Below are positions 3,638 to 18,547 of a DNA stretch of 20,336 bases, one piece after another. The notes beneath the pieces are model-generated. The model did no database searches. It was not told the DNA's origin and worked only from the letters and a program-made list of their open reading frames with translations. Both the position numbers and the translations under genes were made by a program. Source of the stretch: a virus. The DNA is taken from positions 1 to 20,336 of IMG/VR virus record IMGVR_UViG_3300044673_000238; one strand, written 5' to 3'. The first letter of the stretch is position 1; the number at the start of each line of letters is the position of its first letter.

Positions 3638-4278
3638 CAAAGCGCTCCTTTCCGGTAGGTGAAGGTGATTCGTCCCGTTCCTAATATCCCGATCTCCGTG
3701 TCGCCCCCCATGAGTACCAGCGACGGAATGGTGTGTGTCCCCGCCGATAGTGTTACGGTGTAACTGACTGCTCTAATCGTAAACGTGAGCGTCATCTCAG
3801 CGGAAACGGTGATCATCGGAACGACCGGCATGCGCGTGTTCGTCAGCGTCACGGTCGCGCTGCCTGTTGGAAGTACCGTAATCGTAGTACTAAAGTGCTC
3901 CATCTTGTACGGTCTCGCGCGGCATTCCAGCGATAGTTCGCAGTATCCTGCGTGCCGCTCGACGCCCTCTACCGTGACCCGCGCGTCGAAATAGTACGCT
4001 GGGTCACGATCGAAGATCACGTTCATGCGCCGCCCGTGCACGTCTGCCGCAAACGAGGAGGTCAACAAGTCAAACGGTGCGCGGGCATATAACGTGAGCG
4101 GGATGATCCTGTCGGTGTATCGCACCGTACCGAACGCTTCCGACAGATCGAGAGCGCCGTCGCGCCCGGGGATCTCTACAAAGCTCGTCTGCGGTTCCGG
4201 CATGGGGATGGCGTAGGACGCGACGATCAGACCATAGTCCGCGTGCGCCCATTTCGTTCCGAATCGAATATCGCTCAC
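3637..4278 (-). CDS. Distal tail protein (Dit), siphovirus tail component family
   Basis: This 213-residue protein starts at GTG 4278, whose GTGA overlaps the stop of the tape measure gene, with GGAGC about 7 nt upstream. The sequence has the features of Dit N-domains: YAIPMPEPQTSFVEIPGRDG, then the aromatic/charged TVRYTDRIIPLTLY and RPYKMEHF near residue 120. In this family IPGRDGxLDLSE marks the belt that forms the hexameric ring at the tail tip. The C-terminal third is Thr/Val-rich beta sequence, fitting the galectin-like domain. Dit links the tail tube to the Tal hub encoded next. The length is near that of short Dit proteins without carbohydrate-binding insertions. Confidence 0.9.
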   Translation of the reverse strand: MSDIRFGTKWAHADYGLIVASYAIPMPEPQTSFVEIPGRDGALDLSEAFGTVRYTDRIIPLTLYARAPFDLLTSSFAADVHGRRMNVIFDRDPAYYFDARVTVEGVERHAGYCELSLECRARPYKMEHFSTTITVLPTGSATVTLTNTRMPVVPMITVSAEMTLTFTIRAVSYTVTLSAGTHTIPSLVLMGGDTEIGILGTGRITFTYRKGAL

Positions 4279-6614
4279 GTCAGCCGCTCCTTTCGTCTAC
4301 GAATCGCGCCCAGCGCGTCGTCCATGACGGGCGCAAGCCAACCGATGGTCGCGCCCGTATCCGCGACCAGCTGCATGCCCGCGAGCTGCGGCAGATACCG
4401 CCGCACTTCGGAGATCAGCACGTCCAGCTTCTGCGATAGCAGGTCGTTTGTGCCGCCGATGCCGATGTTGTTCGGTAGTTTCGTCAGTACGTCGATTGCG
4501 CCTACGTCCACGCTGGTCGGAATCGCGCTCTGAATCTGCTTGTTCACATCCTCCATGGCGTCGGTAAATCCAACACCCACGCCCTGCCCCATGTTTTCAC
4601 CGATTCCGGCGAACACCTTAGAGGGCGACGCGATACCGAGCGCTCTTTTCGCGCTTTTCACGATATTGGAGAAGAAATCACGCACTTTCGAGGCCAGCCA
4701 AGAGGCCATGCTCTTGATGCCTTCCCAAAGGCCACTCACGATGTTCTTGCCGATCTCCACCACCGAAGATACCGACGACCCGAACCCGTTCAGAATTGCG
4801 GATACGATCTGCGGCAGGGCGGCGACCAGCCGCGGGAGAGCTTTGATCAGGCCAATCGAAAGTTGAACCGTAAATTCGATACCAATGGCCATGAGGGTCG
4901 GGAGATTGTTCATGAAGAAGTTGATGATCCCCGTGATGAGCTTCGGCAGTGCTTCGATCAGCTTCGGCAACGCCCTGACAAGGCCCTCCGCCAACCCTTT
5001 CACAATCGAAAACGCCGCATCCAGTATCTTGTCCATGTTGTCGAACAGCGTTTCGCAGATGAGAAGCACCGCTTCGATAATCGCGGGAATCAACGTCGGC
5101 AGCGCGTCGCCAATTCCCTGTACGAGCGATGCGACCATTTGAATCGCGGCCTCGACCAACGCTGGCAGCATGTCGACAATCCCCTGCGCGAGCGTACTAA
5201 TCAATTGCACAGCTCCATCCGTAAACTGCGGTAGCGCTGTAATCACACCCTGTAGCAGCGTCATGACGATTCCGGAAGCAGCGGAGATTAGCGTAGGTAG
5301 ATTAGCCGCCAGCGCGCCGCCGATCGCGCTCACGATACTCATGCCTACCTGCACAAACTGCGGCAGGCTGCCGAGTATCAAATTCGCGATTCCGCCGACC
5401 GTTTCGCCAAGCACAACGGTAATCTTATTGAAGTCACCGCCCGCTTCCGCAAGTCCCGAAGTGAAGTCGCCGAGCAGGGAAACGCCATCATCCGCGAGCG
5501 TCTGGAGCTGCGGGAGCAGTACCGTACCCATGACACGTTGAGCCGCTGCCGCGCCCTGTTTAAGCCGTTGCACGGAATCATCGAACGCGCCGAATTTTGC
5601 GATCGTTTCCTCGCTTAGTACCGCGCCCATCCGCTTGGCTTCATCGGTCAGCGCCGCGATGCCCTCACTGCCCTGCGCGATCAGCGGATTGAGATCCTGC
5701 GCGCTCTTGCCAAAGAGCTGCATGGCCAGCGCGTCTCGCTCCGTTTCGTTTGCGACCTGCCCGAGTGCGTCGATGGCGTCCCAATAGACGTCTTCGCTGT
5801 CGCGCAGAGATCCGTCCGCGTTGGTCACCGATACGCCGAGGCGGTCGTATGCTTTGGCAAACTGCTCGCTGCCGCCAGCGGCGTTGGACATGGATTTCAC
5901 GTTCTTTGCCATGGAGCCACTCATAGTCTCAAGCGAAACATCCACGAGATCAGCCGCATAAGAATACGCCTGCAACCGCTCCACGCTCATGCCTGTGATG
6001 GAACTCTGCGTCAGCATCTCATCCGCATATGCCGCAGTGTTGACCGTCATATCGACCAGCGCTTTACCAGCGGCAATCGCCGCCGTTCCGATCGCCGCCA
6101 TGGCCGCGCCGAGCGCGACGCCGATGCCTTTCACGACCGAGCCGAGTTTGTCAAAACGCCCGCCCGCGTCATCCGCCTGATCGGCTGATTGTTTGATCTC
6201 GTCGCCGAATTCGTTCGCCTGCTTACCAGCGGAGTCCAGTCCGTTTGCTGTGCTATCCAGCGCGGTTTCATTCGCGCCCAGCTCGCGTTCCATACCGTTG
6301 AGCGCCGCTTTGGCGTTGTTGAGTTGAACCTGCCACGATTGGGTACGCTTATCGTTCTCTCCAAAAGAAGAAGCCGCGTTCTGCAACGCGGCTTCAAGGG
6401 TTTCGACCTTATCTTTTTGAGCGTCGATCTCTTTTCGAAGGACTTGGTTTCGGGCGGTCAGAGCGCCGACCGATTTGTCCTGTTTGTCAAATTGGGAGGT
6501 GACGAGGTTCATTTCGCTCCCTAAAACTTTGAACGACTGGTTGATCTCGGAGAGAGCTTTCTTGAACTCTTTCTCGCCCTCAATCCCAATCTTGAGTCCG
6601 AAGTCGGATGCCAA
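4275..6614 (-). CDS. Tail tape measure protein
   Basis: This 779-residue protein starts at TTG 6614, fixed by a perfect AAGGAGGTGA 4 nt upstream. Residues 1-150 are a charged coiled coil (VLRKEIDAQKDKVETLEAAL). A hydrophobic segment lies at about 160-190 (GIGVALGAAMAAIGTAAIAA), followed by a helical domain with LFGKSAQDLNPLIAQG, characteristic of tape measure proteins. Residues 417-636 form ten consecutive 22-residue hydrophobic repeats, most starting LP. The C-terminal part carries ALGIASPSKVFAGIGENMGQG, a common end motif of siphophage tape measures. The protein sets tail length and is probably delivered toward the host envelope. Its place right after the tail chaperones is normal except that a cargo cassette lies in between. 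Confidence 0.95.
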   Translation of the reverse strand: MASDFGLKIGIEGEKEFKKALSEINQSFKVLGSEMNLVTSQFDKQDKSVGALTARNQVLRKEIDAQKDKVETLEAALQNAASSFGENDKRTQSWQVQLNNAKAALNGMERELGANETALDSTANGLDSAGKQANEFGDEIKQSADQADDAGGRFDKLGSVVKGIGVALGAAMAAIGTAAIAAGKALVDMTVNTAAYADEMLTQSSITGMSVERLQAYSYAADLVDVSLETMSGSMAKNVKSMSNAAGGSEQFAKAYDRLGVSVTNADGSLRDSEDVYWDAIDALGQVANETERDALAMQLFGKSAQDLNPLIAQGSEGIAALTDEAKRMGAVLSEETIAKFGAFDDSVQRLKQGAAAAQRVMGTVLLPQLQTLADDGVSLLGDFTSGLAEAGGDFNKITVVLGETVGGIANLILGSLPQFVQVGMSIVSAIGGALAANLPTLISAASGIVMTLLQGVITALPQFTDGAVQLISTLAQGIVDMLPALVEAAIQMVASLVQGIGDALPTLIPAIIEAVLLICETLFDNMDKILDAAFSIVKGLAEGLVRALPKLIEALPKLITGIINFFMNNLPTLMAIGIEFTVQLSIGLIKALPRLVAALPQIVSAILNGFGSSVSSVVEIGKNIVSGLWEGIKSMASWLASKVRDFFSNIVKSAKRALGIASPSKVFAGIGENMGQGVGVGFTDAMEDVNKQIQSAIPTSVDVGAIDVLTKLPNNIGIGGTNDLLSQKLDVLISEVRRYLPQLAGMQLVADTGATIGWLAPVMDDALGAIRRRKERLT
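4707..5366 (-). repeat. Ten tandem 22-residue repeats inside the tape measure
   Basis: Residues 417-636 divide without gaps into ten 22-residue units beginning at 417, 439, 461, 483, 505, 527, 549, 571, 593 and 615. Eight start with Leu-Pro, for example LPTLISAASGIVMTLLQGV, LPALVEAAIQMVASLVQGI and LPTLIPAIIEAVLLICETL. Units six and ten lack the LP but keep the later IVxGLxxG pattern. Twenty-two equals two hendecads, so the run suggests a regular hydrophobic helical rod. I see the periodicity directly in the protein; the DNA copies have diverged. Confidence 0.8.
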
Positions 6615-6643: not shown

Positions 6644-6665
6644 AAAAAAACGACCCGAAGGTCGT
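6644..6665 (-). terminator. Intrinsic terminator closing the two-gene cargo cassette
   Basis: On the minus strand ACGACC-TTCG-GGTCGT is followed directly by a run of T's (6650-6644). The stem has 6 perfect base pairs with a UUCG tetraloop and a full U-tract. It lies after the stop of the second cargo gene and before the tape measure ribosome-binding site. Confidence 0.9.
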
Positions 6666-6745
6666 ATATTAAGGACTATGTTGCATTGTTGTTATCGATT
6701 GTATTTATGCCATTGTTAGATTCTTGGAACTGAAACGCACTTGAA

Positions 6746-7069
6746 TCAATCGTCAAGCTTTTCTATCAATCTCTCTGCATCCTGTGTTTTTATTCCTTCC
6801 ACACTCCGTTTAATCATCTGTAAACGAACTTCATGTAAAGCTCTGTTATATCTCGCACTATGCTTCTTATATGAATCAACCCGCGAAATGACGGACCTTT
6901 CAGGAGGAGTAATCGACCCAACAAACTTTTTTGCAAGGTACTTTTCTCCACTTGAATCAGCATCCAAAAATGTTACTATTCGTAACAACTGCTTATAGGA
7001 TAGACGTGATGCTTCTGGCACCATTCTCCTTGATCGCCTAACAACGGTAGGTTTAACAAGTAACTTCAT
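6746..7069 (-). CDS. Cargo gene B: small basic helical protein of unknown function
   Basis: This 107-residue protein has no family I recognise. ATG 7069 is chosen because GAGGAG lies about 10 nt upstream; it sits one base after the stop of cargo gene A, so the two are co-translated. A TTG at 7087 would overlap A but lacks a suitable site. The protein is strongly basic at the N-terminus (KPTVVRRSRRMVPEASRLSY) and appears helical later, with many Lys/Arg residues (RYNRALHEVRLQMIKRSVEG) and an acidic end (LIEKLDD). There is no signal peptide, Cys pair or membrane segment. The low GC content and AT-ending codons differ from the structural genes, suggesting acquisition by transfer. Such a protein could bind nucleic acid or be a partner of A, but this is inference only. 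Confidence 0.65.
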   Translation of the reverse strand: MKLLVKPTVVRRSRRMVPEASRLSYKQLLRIVTFLDADSSGEKYLAKKFVGSITPPERSVISRVDSYKKHSARYNRALHEVRLQMIKRSVEGIKTQDAERLIEKLDD

Positions 7070-7070
7070 A

Positions 7071-7586
7071 CTAGAATATCTCCTCAAAAAGTTTAATTCC
7101 AGATAGAGTATCCTTAAATCGTATTACAGAGAACATCTCGCTTGTTAGATCCTCGGCAATATACTCAATTGAGTGAGGAGCTGCCTTATTATCAACTGTT
7201 GCTTCTTTACACATAGAACATGCTAGCGATCCGTTTATGATATAAACCAATGGAAAAAAATCGTGTATTTTTGCTGCATCAACAATAGTGCGAATCTGAA
7301 GCTCTTCGTCTATTGTGATAACCCCTCTTTTTAGCATGATAGCCGCTCCCCGTAGAATACTTACACGGTTTTTCTCAATTATCATACTATGGTTATCTTT
7401 AGTAGCAATGTCTTTCAAATAGCTATTGCATATTGCTCTAGGATTGGATGAAGCCGGCTGAGAATCTCCAAGATCAAACGAAGTAGAACACCAAGCAAAG
7501 TATTTGTCTTTATAATACTTTTTCGCAATCTTATATGCTAATTCACTATTTGTTGAAAATAAAACTGCATCTCTAAAATCGCACAT
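7071..7586 (-). CDS. Cargo gene A: 171-residue protein of unknown function
   Basis: First gene of the AT-rich cassette, starting at ATG 7586 with a weak site (GTGAAGAT) about 37 nt after the predicted transcription start. I do not recognise the family. It looks like a compact soluble alpha/beta protein: VLFSTNSELAYKIAKKYY, then YFAWCSTSFDLG and SQPASSNPRAICNSYLKDI, a central MIIEKNRVSILRGAAIMLKR, and FFPLVYIINGSLACSMCKE. Four of its Cys (two of them as CSMC) do not form a clear zinc ribbon. No membrane segment or known nuclease, kinase or protease motif is visible. Its gene neighbour B follows with a one-base gap. Position inside a phage late operon with its own promoter and terminator suggests a moron expressed from the prophage; exclusion or defence is a guess. 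Confidence 0.7.
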   Translation of the reverse strand: MCDFRDAVLFSTNSELAYKIAKKYYKDKYFAWCSTSFDLGDSQPASSNPRAICNSYLKDIATKDNHSMIIEKNRVSILRGAAIMLKRGVITIDEELQIRTIVDAAKIHDFFPLVYIINGSLACSMCKEATVDNKAAPHSIEYIAEDLTSEMFSVIRFKDTLSGIKLFEEIF

Positions 7587-7615
7587 ATCTTCACGTCAAT
7601 CCTGAATCCTAGAAT

Positions 7616-7683
7616 TATATGGACTAGTTATAATATAACATTACTATGAGTAAAACAAAACCTTCTTTCGCGCTATCCATATA
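7616..7683. repeat. Inverted repeat flanking the cargo promoter, with central palindrome
   Basis: TATATGGA at 7616-7623 and its exact reverse complement TCCATATA at 7676-7683 bracket the cargo promoter. Inside, GTTATAATATAAC at 7627-7639 is a 13-bp palindrome overlapping the -10 box. They could be operators for a repressor, possibly a cassette product. AT-rich palindromes arise by chance fairly easily, so the confidence is low. Confidence 0.35.
7630..7658 (-). promoter_or_regulatory. Predicted sigma-70-type promoter of the two-gene cargo cassette
   Basis: Minus strand: TTGTTT (-35, 7658-7653), a 17-bp spacer, then TATTAT (-10, 7635-7630). Transcription would start near 7623 and leave a leader of about 37 nt before cargo gene A. 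It lies in the non-coding stretch after the stop of the chaperone frameshift product (7707). Confidence 0.55.
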
Positions 7684-7706: not shown

Positions 7707-8281
7707 CTATAGTCCATTTGGAAAGACATCCTCAATGTGCCGTTCTCCCTTAATAAATGTCATTCCCTTTATTTGTTTGTAAACCTCCCACTGATCGAGC
7801 AACGCGCCAACCGGCATGAGCCAAACTTCGCGCTCCGGCCGCCGTAGCAACGTCACGCCATAGAAGATCATTCGGGCAAACAGCTCTTCGTCGCATGCCC
7901 GACCGATACGTTTTTTGAGGGTTCCTCCTCGCTTTCGACATAGCGCTTCGTTCCCTTGACCATCGCCTCCATGATCGCGGTCTTGTAGCCGGACAGATCC
8001 AATGGCGTGGTGAGCAGCTCGACCGCTTCCTCGGTCAACAGCTCGCGCTTATGATCCGGCTCAAGAAGGTTATGGACTAACGTGCTCTGATTCGCGAGCA
8101 GCGTGATCAGCCACACCACCTCATCTAAAGCCAGCTCGAAGTTCTCCGCTTTCATGAGCTTGTCGCCGAGGTGTTCCAACCCGCCGTAACGTTTCGCGAT
8201 CTCTTTGGTTGCTCGGGTGGTCAGGAGCATCTCATACTCCCGATTACCGATTTGGATCATAGCGCCTCTGTCGTTTTCCAT
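7707..8281 (-). CDS. Tail assembly chaperone, frameshift product GT
   Basis: This is the G/T fusion of siphophage tail assembly chaperones. Ribosomes read the G frame from ATG 8281 to the slippery site 7916-7910, slip -1 and continue to TAG 7709-7707, giving about 191 residues. The T part reads KKRIGRACDEELFARMI, then FYGVTLLRRPEREVWLMPVG, LLDQWEVYKQIKGM and HIEDVFPNGL. The aromatic WLMPxGxLLDxW pattern and terminal I(D/E)D(V/I)xP match the T domains of Firmicutes phages. There is no ATG start at the beginning of the T frame, so the fusion is the way to make it. The G domain binds the tape measure while T recruits tail tube subunits. Confidence 0.85.
7868..8281 (-). CDS. Tail assembly chaperone G (unshifted product)
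   Basis: This 137-residue acidic helical protein starts at ATG 8281, with GGAGGG about 8 nt upstream and 4 nt after the major tail protein stop. An N-terminal beta segment (MIQIGNREYEMLLTTRATKE) is followed by helices with FELALDEVVWLITLLANQ and LLTEEAVELLTTPLDLSGY, the pattern of phi13/SPP1-group chaperones located between major tail protein and tape measure. The last about 13 residues after the slip site read in the zero frame and end at TGA 7870-7868. Longer upstream readings overlap the major tail protein in an Arg-rich frame and are not real. Confidence 0.9.
   Translation of the reverse strand: MENDRGAMIQIGNREYEMLLTTRATKEIAKRYGGLEHLGDKLMKAENFELALDEVVWLITLLANQSTLVHNLLEPDHKRELLTEEAVELLTTPLDLSGYKTAIMEAMVKGTKRYVESEEEPSKNVSVGHATKSCLPE
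7910..7916 (-). promoter_or_regulatory. Programmed -1 ribosomal frameshift site A AAA AAC
   Basis: In the G frame the codons are TCA AAA AAC, giving the canonical X XXY YYZ heptamer A AAA AAC. The -1 frame downstream is open for 67 codons and encodes the conserved T domain. This is the standard mechanism for setting the G:GT ratio in siphophage tails. Confidence 0.85.
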
Positions 8282-13823: not shown

Positions 13824-13854
13824 AAAAAAGCATCTGCTGTTATTCGCAGATGCT
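13824..13854 (-). terminator. Intrinsic terminator after the zinc-ribbon cargo gene
   Basis: On the minus strand AGCATCTGC, an 8-nt loop and GCAGATGCT form a perfect 9-bp stem followed by TTTTTT (13829-13824). It lies 22 nt after the zinc-ribbon gene stop and just before the portal start. Confidence 0.92.
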
Positions 13855-13875: not shown

Positions 13876-14745
13876 TTATTTTTTCCTAATATTCCAATAT
13901 CGCTTATTCGAACTATCCAATTGCTTATCGAAATCGCTTAGTATTTCATTCAATTCCAGCGTTACTTCGGGTGTGGGCGGATCTGTTTCGTTAAGAGAAT
14001 GACCACACCATAGACACTGGTATGCTTTCCGATCACGCAATCTCTTGCAATACGGACATTCAATTAAGTCATCTTGTCTTGTTTCTTTAACTGTTCTGTG
14101 GCAACATTCAGAACAATATATCGTGTCGTCATCATCCCAAAGCTTCTTTGGATTTTCATTCCCACAGTTAGCACATTTCATCTTTCCCTCGCAATCAGTC
14201 AAATCCTGAGCATCTGGATCTAGATTCGGAAAATAAGTTGAAGAACCACCACCGCTTTCATCACTTCTTGTATCTGATGATTCTGAACTGTAGTAAGCTG
14301 CGACTACAGCAATAGCAGTTCCTGCGATTATCCCAGCAGTTTTCAATCTCTCAATACTATTTTGCTTGCGGATTGTTCTGCAATCATCGCACAAATAATC
14401 ATTTGAATCAATTTGAATTATTTTACCGCAATCCTTGCACAAATTTACGATGTTGCTAATGGTGATGTTATTTTCGAAGTCGCATTTCGTGCATTTCCAT
14501 GTGCTTCTCTTAATATCGAATCCTGTTTGATCGTTTAAAAACGTTTTGCATTTGTCGCAGAACCAAAAAACATAATTATCGCGTAATTTCTCATCAGAAA
14601 TAATATAATCACAACTCTGACATTCCCAAACGCCCGTTTTGCGGTTATATTTCATCTCGCTATCATTGTTGCATGCAGGACAAAACATCCGCTTTTTTAA
14701 ATGTTTAGTAATAAAGTACTCCCACTTATCTTTGAATGCACTCAT
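13876..14745 (-). CDS. Cargo protein with five zinc ribbons and a hydrophobic segment, function unknown
   Basis: This 289-residue protein starts at ATG 14745 with GAGG 9 nt upstream. Ten CxxC pairs make five ribbons: C22/25-C42/45, C63/66-C85/88, C103/106-C119/122, then C191/194-C211/214 and C230/233-C244/247. Between ribbons three and four is a short hydrophobic segment at about 137-152 (TAGIIAGTAIAVVAAYY), preceded by Lys/Arg and followed by an acidic, Ser/Gly-rich linker. The positive-inside rule would place the N-terminal ribbons in the cytoplasm if the segment spans the membrane. The Lys-rich tail follows LELNEILSDFDKQLDSSN. It resembles poorly described zinc-ribbon proteins of clostridia; I assign no function. 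The AT-rich composition and private promoter and terminator mark it as an inserted moron. Confidence 0.85.
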   Translation of the reverse strand: MSAFKDKWEYFITKHLKKRMFCPACNNDSEMKYNRKTGVWECQSCDYIISDEKLRDNYVFWFCDKCKTFLNDQTGFDIKRSTWKCTKCDFENNITISNIVNLCKDCGKIIQIDSNDYLCDDCRTIRKQNSIERLKTAGIIAGTAIAVVAAYYSSESSDTRSDESGGGSSTYFPNLDPDAQDLTDCEGKMKCANCGNENPKKLWDDDDTIYCSECCHRTVKETRQDDLIECPYCKRLRDRKAYQCLWCGHSLNETDPPTPEVTLELNEILSDFDKQLDSSNKRYWNIRKK

Positions 14746-16548: not shown

Positions 16549-16857
16549 TTAGTTGTATTCTTTCAGGATCTGCTCGTAAACCGCCTTCACCTGTGCGCCG
16601 CTCGGTTTCTTCGACCAGCCCCTGTCGTACTGTACGAAAAGCTGTCCGTCCTTCCAAATCTCAAGCTTTGAAATCCGCCCGTTCGAAATTCCGTATTCCG
16701 AGCCTTCGTCGTATTGCTTGAAGTAAAATACGAAAAGCTGTCCGTCCTTCCAAATCTCAAGCTTTGAAATCCGCCCGTTCGAAATTCCGTATTCCGAGCC
16801 TTCGTCGTATTGCTTGAAGTAAAAGCTGTACCCGTCTATCGTCCCTTTGATCCACAT
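16549..16857 (-). CDS. DUF7678-like small phage protein with internal duplication
   Basis: ATG 16857 is chosen because GGAGGG lies 7 nt upstream; an in-frame ATG at 16896 has no such site. The 102-residue product starts MWIKGTIDGY and ends with QYDRGWSKKPSGAQVKAVYE, both matching the DUF7678 pattern as I recall it. Residues 12-43 are repeated exactly at 44-75, encoded by a perfect 96-bp tandem duplication. The ancestral protein would be about 70 residues, the normal size for such proteins. The duplication keeps frame, so a product can be made, but it doubles the core strand region. Function of the family is unknown; it lies near terminase in related prophages. Confidence 0.75.
   Translation of the reverse strand: MWIKGTIDGYSFYFKQYDEGSEYGISNGRISKLEIWKDGQLFVFYFKQYDEGSEYGISNGRISKLEIWKDGQLFVQYDRGWSKKPSGAQVKAVYEQILKEYN
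16633..16824. repeat. Perfect 96-bp tandem direct repeat, two copies
   Basis: Copies lie at 16633-16728 and 16729-16824 and are identical at every base. The unit length is 32 codons exactly, so reading frame is kept. Boundaries are sharp with no flanking homology, although aaaagctgt occurs 5 nt inside one end and at the other end, which may have guided slippage. Identity at all positions implies a very recent event, or an assembly artefact. Confidence 0.95.
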
Positions 16858-17010
16858 TGCTTTGCCCTCCGTGCTTTGTTGTTTGCCTTTCGGCATGTGT
16901 ATCTATCACTCTGCGGGCTTGGAATAGCAAGTGGATTCTGTAATAAATCTTCAATATTGTTTGTAATTGTCTTGGGTAAGGAACTCATCTGTTTTGCAGG
17001 CTGATAGCAA

Positions 17011-17140: not shown

Positions 17141-17593
17141 TCAAGAGGTCGCGGCGTCCGCGCTGTTGGCCTGCACCGCCGCCTTCAAAACTTCGGTATC
17201 AAACCCAGCCGCTTTGTATCCTTCAAGAAGCGTACTGTAATAGAAGGCGCTCGGCTTGTTCGGTGGCTTGTTGCCAATCAGCATGTACACAAACGCATCG
17301 ATCGCCACGCCGTTCAACCGCACTTTGACAATATCCTTTCTGTACATTTCCGGCACCCCGATCCAGCGGTCGAGCGCTTCTTCGTCCTGCGAGGTTATCT
17401 CCCACAGGAGCGCGGGTACGCCACCGCCCTTCGCCTTTTCGATCGTCGCAACCGCGCAGGCGTTGCCGCCGCGAAAAGTAAGCCTGAAGTTCTTCAACTC
17501 GGTCGCACCAATCGGCTTCGCGGTCGGACAATGCTTCACCATTTCGCTACGATTCAAGCCGACGCCGTAAGCGGCAAATACCCAACTACTCAT
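17141..17593 (-). CDS. Gamma-glutamylcyclotransferase-fold protein, probably catalytically altered
   Basis: ATG 17593 gives 150 residues starting MSSWVFAAYGVGLN and overlaps the DUF4314 stop by 8 nt; longer upstream starts fall inside that gene. The GGCT/AIG2 fold pattern is clear: the N-terminal strand and loop, HCPTAKPIGATELKNFRLTF, VPALLWEITSQDEEALDRW, and AFVYMLIGNKPPNKPSAFY. Enzymes of this family normally have YGSN in the first loop and a catalytic Glu in DRYEG. Here these are YGVG and DRWIG (Ile78), both altered. Phage homologues often sit near terminase, with unknown role. I expect a binding or structural role rather than cyclotransferase activity, by inference. Confidence 0.85.
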   Translation of the reverse strand: MSSWVFAAYGVGLNRSEMVKHCPTAKPIGATELKNFRLTFRGGNACAVATIEKAKGGGVPALLWEITSQDEEALDRWIGVPEMYRKDIVKVRLNGVAIDAFVYMLIGNKPPNKPSAFYYSTLLEGYKAAGFDTEVLKAAVQANSADAATS

Positions 17594-17819
17594 TTTCCTC
17601 AATCCTCCGGCACTCATCTTCACCGAATACAACACCGAGCGAACTGCCACAATCCCAATTCACATGGATCGTTCCGATATCGTCGACCAAGGTGACCGTC
17701 CCCCGGTCACCCTGTCGCAGGTTGGTGTAAGGATCGCTCATGCGAATCAGCATCACCCGAGTGCCGGATGTGTAATGATCTTTGAGCTGTTTCAGCATCT
17801 CTGGATGAATCCCAATCAT
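17586..17819 (-). CDS. DUF4314 small phage protein
   Basis: This 77-residue protein starts at ATG 17819, whose ATGA overlaps the stop of the upstream gene. After a helical start (MLKQLKDHYTSGTRVMLIRM), it has the conserved DUF4314 pattern DPYTNLRQGDRGTVTLVDD, then IHVNWDCGSSLGVVFGEDE. The pattern resembles a small SH3-like beta barrel with a G-T-V turn. The family is frequent in Firmicutes prophages beside terminase and has no known function. It overlaps the GGCT-like gene at its 3' end, so the three genes 18547-17141 are one coupled unit. Confidence 0.88.
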   Translation of the reverse strand: MIGIHPEMLKQLKDHYTSGTRVMLIRMSDPYTNLRQGDRGTVTLVDDIGTIHVNWDCGSSLGVVFGEDECRRIEENE

Positions 17820-18547
17820 TCTTCTTCACCCGCTTCCCGCATTGTGCGAAACGCTGCGTTACCAGAAAGATTTTTCAGCAGGATCTTTCGTGCTTCCTTA
17901 AATTCCGCACCGATAAATCCGAGTCGCAGTAGGAAGCAGCGGAAGGCGTACTTCTCGTTATCAACTTCCTGCTCCGTCGCGCTTACTCGCTTTTGTGTGC
18001 GCGACAGTTCGCAAAGCCCCTGTACCAGTTGGTAGTAGGCGGCGATCTCATCCTGATCGTCAGTCGTTAGGAACCACCCAAACTCAATCCTGTCAGAATG
18101 TTCTGTGATCGCGAGGCTGTCCGTATCGAGCGCTTTTTTCAGCAGCGTCGCTTTACTCGCGACCAGCCGCCGCAGGTTCTCCATGGCGGTTGGCGTCATG
18201 CCATTCTTCGGCAGCTCGACTGCGAGGCGGTCAGGATCGACAGTGCGAGGTGTTTCTTTTATCAGTTGATCCGGCTCGACCGTTTTGGGTTCAGCGGGCA
18301 CTGCCGCTTGTCCTACCCGTTCGCCGATGAAGCCGTCGTGTGCAAGTTCGCGAATCAGCATTTCGATCTGCGCTTCGTCCGTTCCTTCCTGGCAAGTGAC
18401 CGTACCATTCTTGTCGACTGTGTAAGCGCCCACCTGAAACGCGAAGCTCGGCGCGCCGAGGTATCGCGTCGCGTCCTGCAACGTGTCCCGCATGACCGCG
18501 ACCAGCGCCTTCCGTCTGTCCCCCGTAACGTTGTACTTGATTTGCAT
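17816..18547 (-). CDS. Phage 'virulence-related' protein, function unknown
   Basis: This 243-residue protein starts at ATG 18547 with GGAAGG about 10 nt upstream. The N-terminal domain (1-90) begins MQIKYNVTGDRRKALVAVMR and continues YLGAPSFAFQVGAYTVDKNG; this is the family often labelled 'virulence-related protein' in clostridial prophages, a name without experimental basis that I know of. A Pro/Glu linker (about 95-125) leads to a helical C-terminal domain with MENLRRLVASKATLLKKALD, RIEFGWFLTTDDQDEIAAYY and EYAF-type residues near YAFRCFLLRLGFIGAEFKEA. It heads a coupled run with DUF4314 and the GGCT-like gene. No enzyme motif is visible. Confidence 0.8.
   Translation of the reverse strand: MQIKYNVTGDRRKALVAVMRDTLQDATRYLGAPSFAFQVGAYTVDKNGTVTCQEGTDEAQIEMLIRELAHDGFIGERVGQAAVPAEPKTVEPDQLIKETPRTVDPDRLAVELPKNGMTPTAMENLRRLVASKATLLKKALDTDSLAITEHSDRIEFGWFLTTDDQDEIAAYYQLVQGLCELSRTQKRVSATEQEVDNEKYAFRCFLLRLGFIGAEFKEARKILLKNLSGNAAFRTMREAGEEE

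Follow-up and report, generated by a model that had tools for sequence, protein, structure and literature searches.

Our analyses revealed that a gut-type phage, represented by a virus record, carries a pair of small, coupled genes of foreign composition, here called A and B, between its tail assembly chaperone and tape measure genes, and we favor, with slightly better than even confidence, the reading that A and B constitute a mobile effector-plus-partner cargo cassette (a moron) of an undescribed family that would serve phage conflict or host addiction. We consider it probable that the A–B family is a small means of attack or protection carried from one mobile element to another. The window, by which we mean the whole stretch of DNA that was analyzed, is a 20,336-base virus record whose minus strand carries the late genes of an HK97-type siphophage. 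The features that define the cassette and its borders are the following.

7868 to 8272, minus strand: gene for the tail assembly chaperone gpG (phrog_2115, 1.8e-25)
7910 to 7916, minus strand: slippery heptamer A AAA AAC, in frame, of the tail chaperone gene; it marks the gpG/gpGT neighbor upstream
7707 to 7910, minus strand: T part of gpGT, the −1 frame extension; upstream boundary of the cassette
7632 to 7640, minus strand: candidate extended −10 (TGT-TATATT; hexamer 7637 to 7632) without a recognizable −35; putative promoter
7614 to 7619, minus strand: alternative candidate −10, a perfect TATAAT, without a recognizable −35; putative
7071 to 7586, minus strand: gene A, encoding the conserved 171-aa core protein of the module; assigned as an open reading frame with seven relatives
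6746 to 7069, minus strand: gene B (type B-I), 107 aa from its ATG; assigned as an open reading frame with homologs adjoining A in PV036454 and L003
6650 to 6665, minus strand: intrinsic terminator directly after B, ACGACC-UUCG-GGTCGT-TTTTTTT (6-bp stem, UUCG loop, seven T)
4275 to 6614, minus strand: tape measure gene (phrog_58, 2.7e-69); downstream boundary of the cassette

A and B are two coding, coupled genes of foreign composition. A single base separates the TAG stop of A from the ATG of B, and the Shine–Dalgarno sequence of B, GAGGAG, is located within A. The G+C content is 0.357 for A and 0.395 for B versus 0.577 and 0.553 for the tape measure and chaperone genes, respectively, and GC3 is 0.29 to 0.32 for A and B versus 0.70 to 0.73 for the same two neighbors. 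The open reading frames, the spacing of stop and ATG, G+C, and GC3 thus all agree with an earlier note, made from the sequence alone, which had described two coupled AT-rich genes of 171 and 107 residues. That note had also reported a base composition unlike that of the structural genes, and this difference recurs in three phages: in the window and in two of the relatives described below, PV036454 and L003, A and B have a G+C content of 0.36 to 0.41 (40 to 41% for A–B in PV036454 and L003), versus 0.54 to 0.58 for the structural genes or the whole locus. The B protein has a pI of 10.3 and is predicted to be all-helical, with a long C-terminal helix (model pLDDT 76.8); its core motif is LSYKQLLR...EK...F..S.TPPE..V.

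On the upstream side of the cassette, the −1 frame of gpGT is open and reads RIGRACDEELFARMIFYGVTLLRRPEREVWLMPVGALLDQWEVYK... to a TAG stop at 7709 to 7707. The slippery heptamer, together with the −1 frame open to 7707, indicates that gpGT ends just before the cassette. An open reading frame at 7750 to 7941 was considered as the gpGT extension and rejected, since the slippery site and the −1 frame put the end at 7707. With the chaperone ending there and the tape measure gene lying downstream, the cassette occupies a clean gap, 7706 to 6615. The placement between gpGT and tape measure that the earlier note had proposed therefore holds, with phrog_2115 and the frameshift on one side and phrog_58 on the other. 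The UUCG terminator claimed for the cassette was likewise found, at 6665 to 6650; it is the sole site of such quality in the window when both strands are scanned, and a site of terminator quality arises in 1 of 500 dinucleotide shuffles of the cassette region. Because this terminator is oriented along the late operon, either late transcripts must read through it or a second promoter must serve the tape measure gene. The claimed promoter with 17-bp spacing is at most putative: a scan for sigma-70 promoters gave four sites versus 3.9 expected by chance, and the −10 candidates stand without a recognizable −35. The candidate extended −10 at 7637 to 7632 would imply a leader close to 37 nt.

Seven further A genes were found (25 to 39% identity); one lies on a Sinorhizobium conjugative plasmid, and the phage carriers comprise two Christensenellales-type and three P2-like phages plus a further temperate phage contig. 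PV036454 (a Christensenellales phage) was found by tblastn, and A and B are adjacent there; L003 was added by alignment-based scans, and the Sinorhizobium chiapasense conjugative plasmid by tblastn with the A protein of L003. The relatedness of the plasmid A was given a probability of 99% in profile comparison. A DNA pattern for HY.WC[ST]P.F, a motif taken from the plasmid protein, gave eight matches, four of them real relatives and four chance hits; the members found by this motif are L009, L010 (extended as L023), L013 (extended as L022), and L014 (extended as L024). In window numbering, S11, W32, F37, P44, S47, P49, and D64-x-H66 are invariant in all eight A proteins, as are P112, A135, E141, and F152. 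In a tree of the A proteins, PV036454 clusters with L003, and the plasmid clusters with L009 and L023, the two P2-like members sharing its partner type. The gene pair of L009 was not found when E. coli genomes were searched. Two serine-recombinase matches in PV036454, one such match in G003 (the source of L022), and a tyrosine integrase in G002 (the source of L023) fit a temperate ancestry.

The cassette has changed its site among related phages. In PV036454 and L003, A–B lies between the portal and HNH/terminase genes on the opposite strand, an orientation that implies a separate promoter for the pair in these two phages, and in the window A–B lies at the gpGT/tape measure junction on the late-gene strand. 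Between the window and these two phages, the capsid proteins are 60 to 62% and the portal proteins 58 to 59% identical (TerL, 65%, PV036454 only), and the A proteins are only 34 to 35% identical. A hairpin with a T run was observed inside the convergent HNH gene just after B in L001 and L003, and it possibly doubles as the A–B terminator. Two further features occupy the corresponding junctions.

40187 to 40749 of PV036454 (4188 to 4750 of L006), opposite strand: ParE/Phd-YefM toxin–antitoxin pair at the tail chaperone/tape measure junction
13876 to 14745 of the window, minus strand: AT-rich gene of 289 aa between terminase and portal; 37.5% G+C; several weak zinc-ribbon matches

ParE was matched at 3e-18 and Phd/YefM at 8e-7, the latter just under its cut-off. 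The 289-aa gene fills the site where PV036454 and L003 carry A–B and has its own strong terminator at 13854 (9-bp stem, T run); its protein had no relative in the phage collection. Because the contents differ between the window and PV036454, both junctions, chaperone/tape measure and portal/terminase, take different cargo in different phages, and on the strength of these sequence comparisons cargo appears to be accommodated at the chaperone/tape-measure junction. Three features of a moron were found for A–B, namely other cargo at the same junction in a relative, foreign composition, and a terminator of its own. The moron-like reading of the earlier note is strengthened by the change of site, by the low G+C in the three carriers of A with B-I, and by the defense, toxin–antitoxin, and repressor neighbors of the family, but the cassette's own promoter is still putative, the scan having given no more sites than expected by chance.

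Two observations were made elsewhere in the window. A perfect 96-bp tandem duplication, with two copies that are 100% identical, is present at 16633 to 16824 inside a DUF7678 gene (16549 to 16896), where it doubles a 32-aa stretch; it is either a very recent event or an assembly artifact. At 17141 to 18547, genes for a gamma-glutamyl cyclotransferase-like protein, a DUF4314 protein, and an amidoligase-like protein adjoin the packaging genes, and in PV036454 an annotated amidoligase is also located upstream of the terminase.

A coupled second gene follows A in six of the seven further carriers, which are all those with a readable end of A; the contig of L024 stops at A. Wherever the sequence continues, the second gene starts at or over the end of A. 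Type B-I (basic, pI 9.7 to 10.3) lies beside A in the window, PV036454, and L003, and its profile matches only these three of the eight carrier records. Type B-II (about 120 aa, pI 4.5 to 5.6) lies beside A in the P2-like phages L009 and L023 as well as on the Sinorhizobium plasmid, and its profile also matches its own carriers only. L022 has a third partner type, a protein of 294 aa. Profile comparisons found no homology between B-I and B-II, nor between B-II and the 294-aa partner. The proposal that A and B act together is supported in that B was seen only beside A in the co-occurrence survey, and it has to be qualified, as A also pairs with different second genes. Judged from sequence, the module is better described as A with an interchangeable partner than as "A+B."

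The partner also changes faster than A. Between PV036454 and L003, the A proteins are 66% identical versus 43 to 46% for the partners, and between L009 and L023 the values are 78% versus 45%; pN is smaller than pS for A and for the partners in both comparisons. A conserved A with a faster partner would be the pattern of a conserved effector whose partner is under changing selection.

Profile searches gave no match above the cut-off for A or B in Pfam or NCBIfam and no convincing match in PHROGs or PADLOC, in agreement with the claim that both belong to unknown families. A match of A to DUF4894 (17 bits versus a cut-off of 28) and matches of B to Cdc37, a sulfonate monooxygenase, and a catalase were judged to be due to chance. 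The PADLOC 2023 models gave zero matches for A, B-I, B-II, and the 294-aa partner, and neither A nor B matches any known toxin or antitoxin family. The earlier note had also raised the case of ordinary tail proteins; profile searches, including those of PHROGs, returned no tail family for A or B. Structural comparison could be carried through for one of the two proteins: the model of B, which is of fair quality, gave no fold match in a structural search, and the predicted structure of A (pLDDT 40, from an alignment of only two sequences) was too poor for a fold search. The order of motifs in A, LYS...T / HY.WC[ST]P / S.EY[IV], to our eyes recalls three strands of the ADP-ribosyltransferase fold, which we take as a lead; profile searches gave no match for such an enzyme. 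A would resemble DarT-type and other ADP-ribosyltransferase toxins in this motif order, and no macrodomain partner is found by A.

The company of the family in other carriers bears on its likely role. In L022 and L024, A lies directly behind a repressor-like HTH gene and in the same direction. The order in L022 is repressor-like HTH gene, A, and the 294-aa partner, followed on the other strand by gpD and tail genes, and in L024 an S24-type repressor gene is followed by A. In L023, the order is repressor-like gene, RelA_SpoT gene (5e-23; PADLOC PDC-S33), unknown gene, A, B-II, and gpD. The RelA/SpoT-domain gene and the unknown gene, which encodes 265 aa, span 5238 to 7076 of L023 and are perhaps a separate two-gene conflict module. 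In L009, A–B-II is near gpD, and the same contig carries, kilobases from A, the genes Hp1 and Hp2 (4e-183 and 5e-161), which we take to be parts of Rst_3HP. Rst_3HP has been reported as mostly prophage-encoded (PMC9090908). A–B on the plasmid is followed within about 6 kb by genes for a QatC-like protein, an RmrA/CapP-like HTH-peptidase, and a PIN protein, with other genes in between; these neighbors and Hp1/Hp2 are loose associations. The defense association is a by-eye count among the eight A carriers, phage and plasmid, and is not a statistic, because the carriers are only eight and cellular genomes lay outside the sample.

RexAB of phage lambda consists of two prophage-expressed exclusion genes located after cI, and RexB is a membrane protein. 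A–B shares with RexAB the two-gene layout and, in L022 and L024, the position of A directly behind a repressor-like gene, but A and B have no PADLOC match, B is predicted to be soluble and helical, and the window cassette is outside the immunity region. Type II toxin–antitoxin modules are likewise two small coupled genes on mobile elements, and one of them, the ParE and Phd/YefM module, fills the equivalent junction in the relative PV036454. A–B differs from these modules in that it matches no toxin or antitoxin family and in that its partners are exchangeable and unrelated. P2-like phages carry exchangeable defense cargo between conserved genes (Rousset et al. 2022, PMC9122126). Like the morons of lambdoid and P2-like prophages and the P2/P4 hotspots, A–B is a small cassette of foreign composition between conserved genes with turnover of cargo; moreover, three of the A carriers are P2-like phages in which A lies near gpD. 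However, the gpGT/tape measure site is not among the hotspots described in the part of that article used here (PMC9122126), and none of PADLOC, Pfam, NCBIfam, and PHROGs contains the A or B family.

How a cargo cassette of this kind might work can be outlined as follows. A would be the conserved effector and B its coupled, fast-evolving partner, an assignment that we infer. The prophage would express both proteins jointly, and B, in a complex with A, would hold it in check or steer it. Infection of the lysogen by a competing phage, or loss of B, would then activate A, which would arrest growth or phage production, as in toxin–antitoxin and abortive-infection modules. The expected phenotype would be exclusion or addiction, and the evidence appears to fit toxin–antitoxin and sensor–effector versions alike. 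A more specific proposal, which we put forward tentatively and regard as possible but short of probable, is that the family is an undescribed anti-phage system in which A represents a new enzyme family and serves as the conserved effector, the exchangeable partners act as sensor or inhibitor, and the gpGT/tape-measure junction is a cargo hotspot, with the system distributed across Christensenellales-type siphophages, P2-like prophages, and a rhizobial plasmid.

Other roles were weighed against the mobile effector-plus-partner cassette. It is unlikely that A+B provides superinfection exclusion without cell death, whereby the pair, expressed from a prophage, would block a related phage at a later step, either DNA injection or tail assembly. 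Such a role would explain the place of the cassette beside the tape measure gene, as the window cassette touches both gpGT and tape measure, and prophage cargo of this kind is known, including systems described as disrupting the assembly of tails or virions (Tai, PMC11364771; PMC10884400). However, the tape measure site is not conserved, the family being found also at portal/terminase, beside repressors, near gpD, and on a plasmid, and A and B have no tail-like match. Quite unlikely, too, is a host-benefit moron, that is, a lysogenic-conversion pair that would serve metabolism or the stress response and have no part in phage conflict: the composition, terminator, and mosaic position of A–B fit any moron, and no family match supplies a function, but the company of the family consists of toxin–antitoxin, RelA/SpoT, Hp1/Hp2, and QatC-like genes, and the partner changes faster than A. 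Counter-defense, in which early-expressed A+B would shield the incoming phage from host defenses (anti-restriction or similar), is a role that phage cargo often has, and binding of a host factor would suit a partner that is small, basic, and quick to evolve. We nevertheless judge it quite unlikely, given that in two phages A sits directly behind a repressor-like gene in the same direction, apparently a prophage-expressed position, and that the family is also on a plasmid near defense genes. Finally, that A and B are ordinary tail-morphogenesis genes (tail chaperone or tape-measure-related) of the phage group of the window is suggested only by their position within the tail cluster and is nearly excluded, since neither has a tail family match, PV036454 keeps its chaperone and tape measure genes around a toxin–antitoxin pair with A–B absent at that position, and homologs are present in unrelated P2-like phages and on a plasmid.

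If the reading of A and its partners as a mobile cassette for phage conflict or host addiction is right, the family would be a new one of small, prophage-borne conflict modules that current catalogs have missed. A conserved core with swappable partners is what one would expect of an effector whose sensors or inhibitors change. The junction between the gpGT frameshift and the tape measure gene would then accommodate cargo in gut siphophages and be a place to look for further systems.
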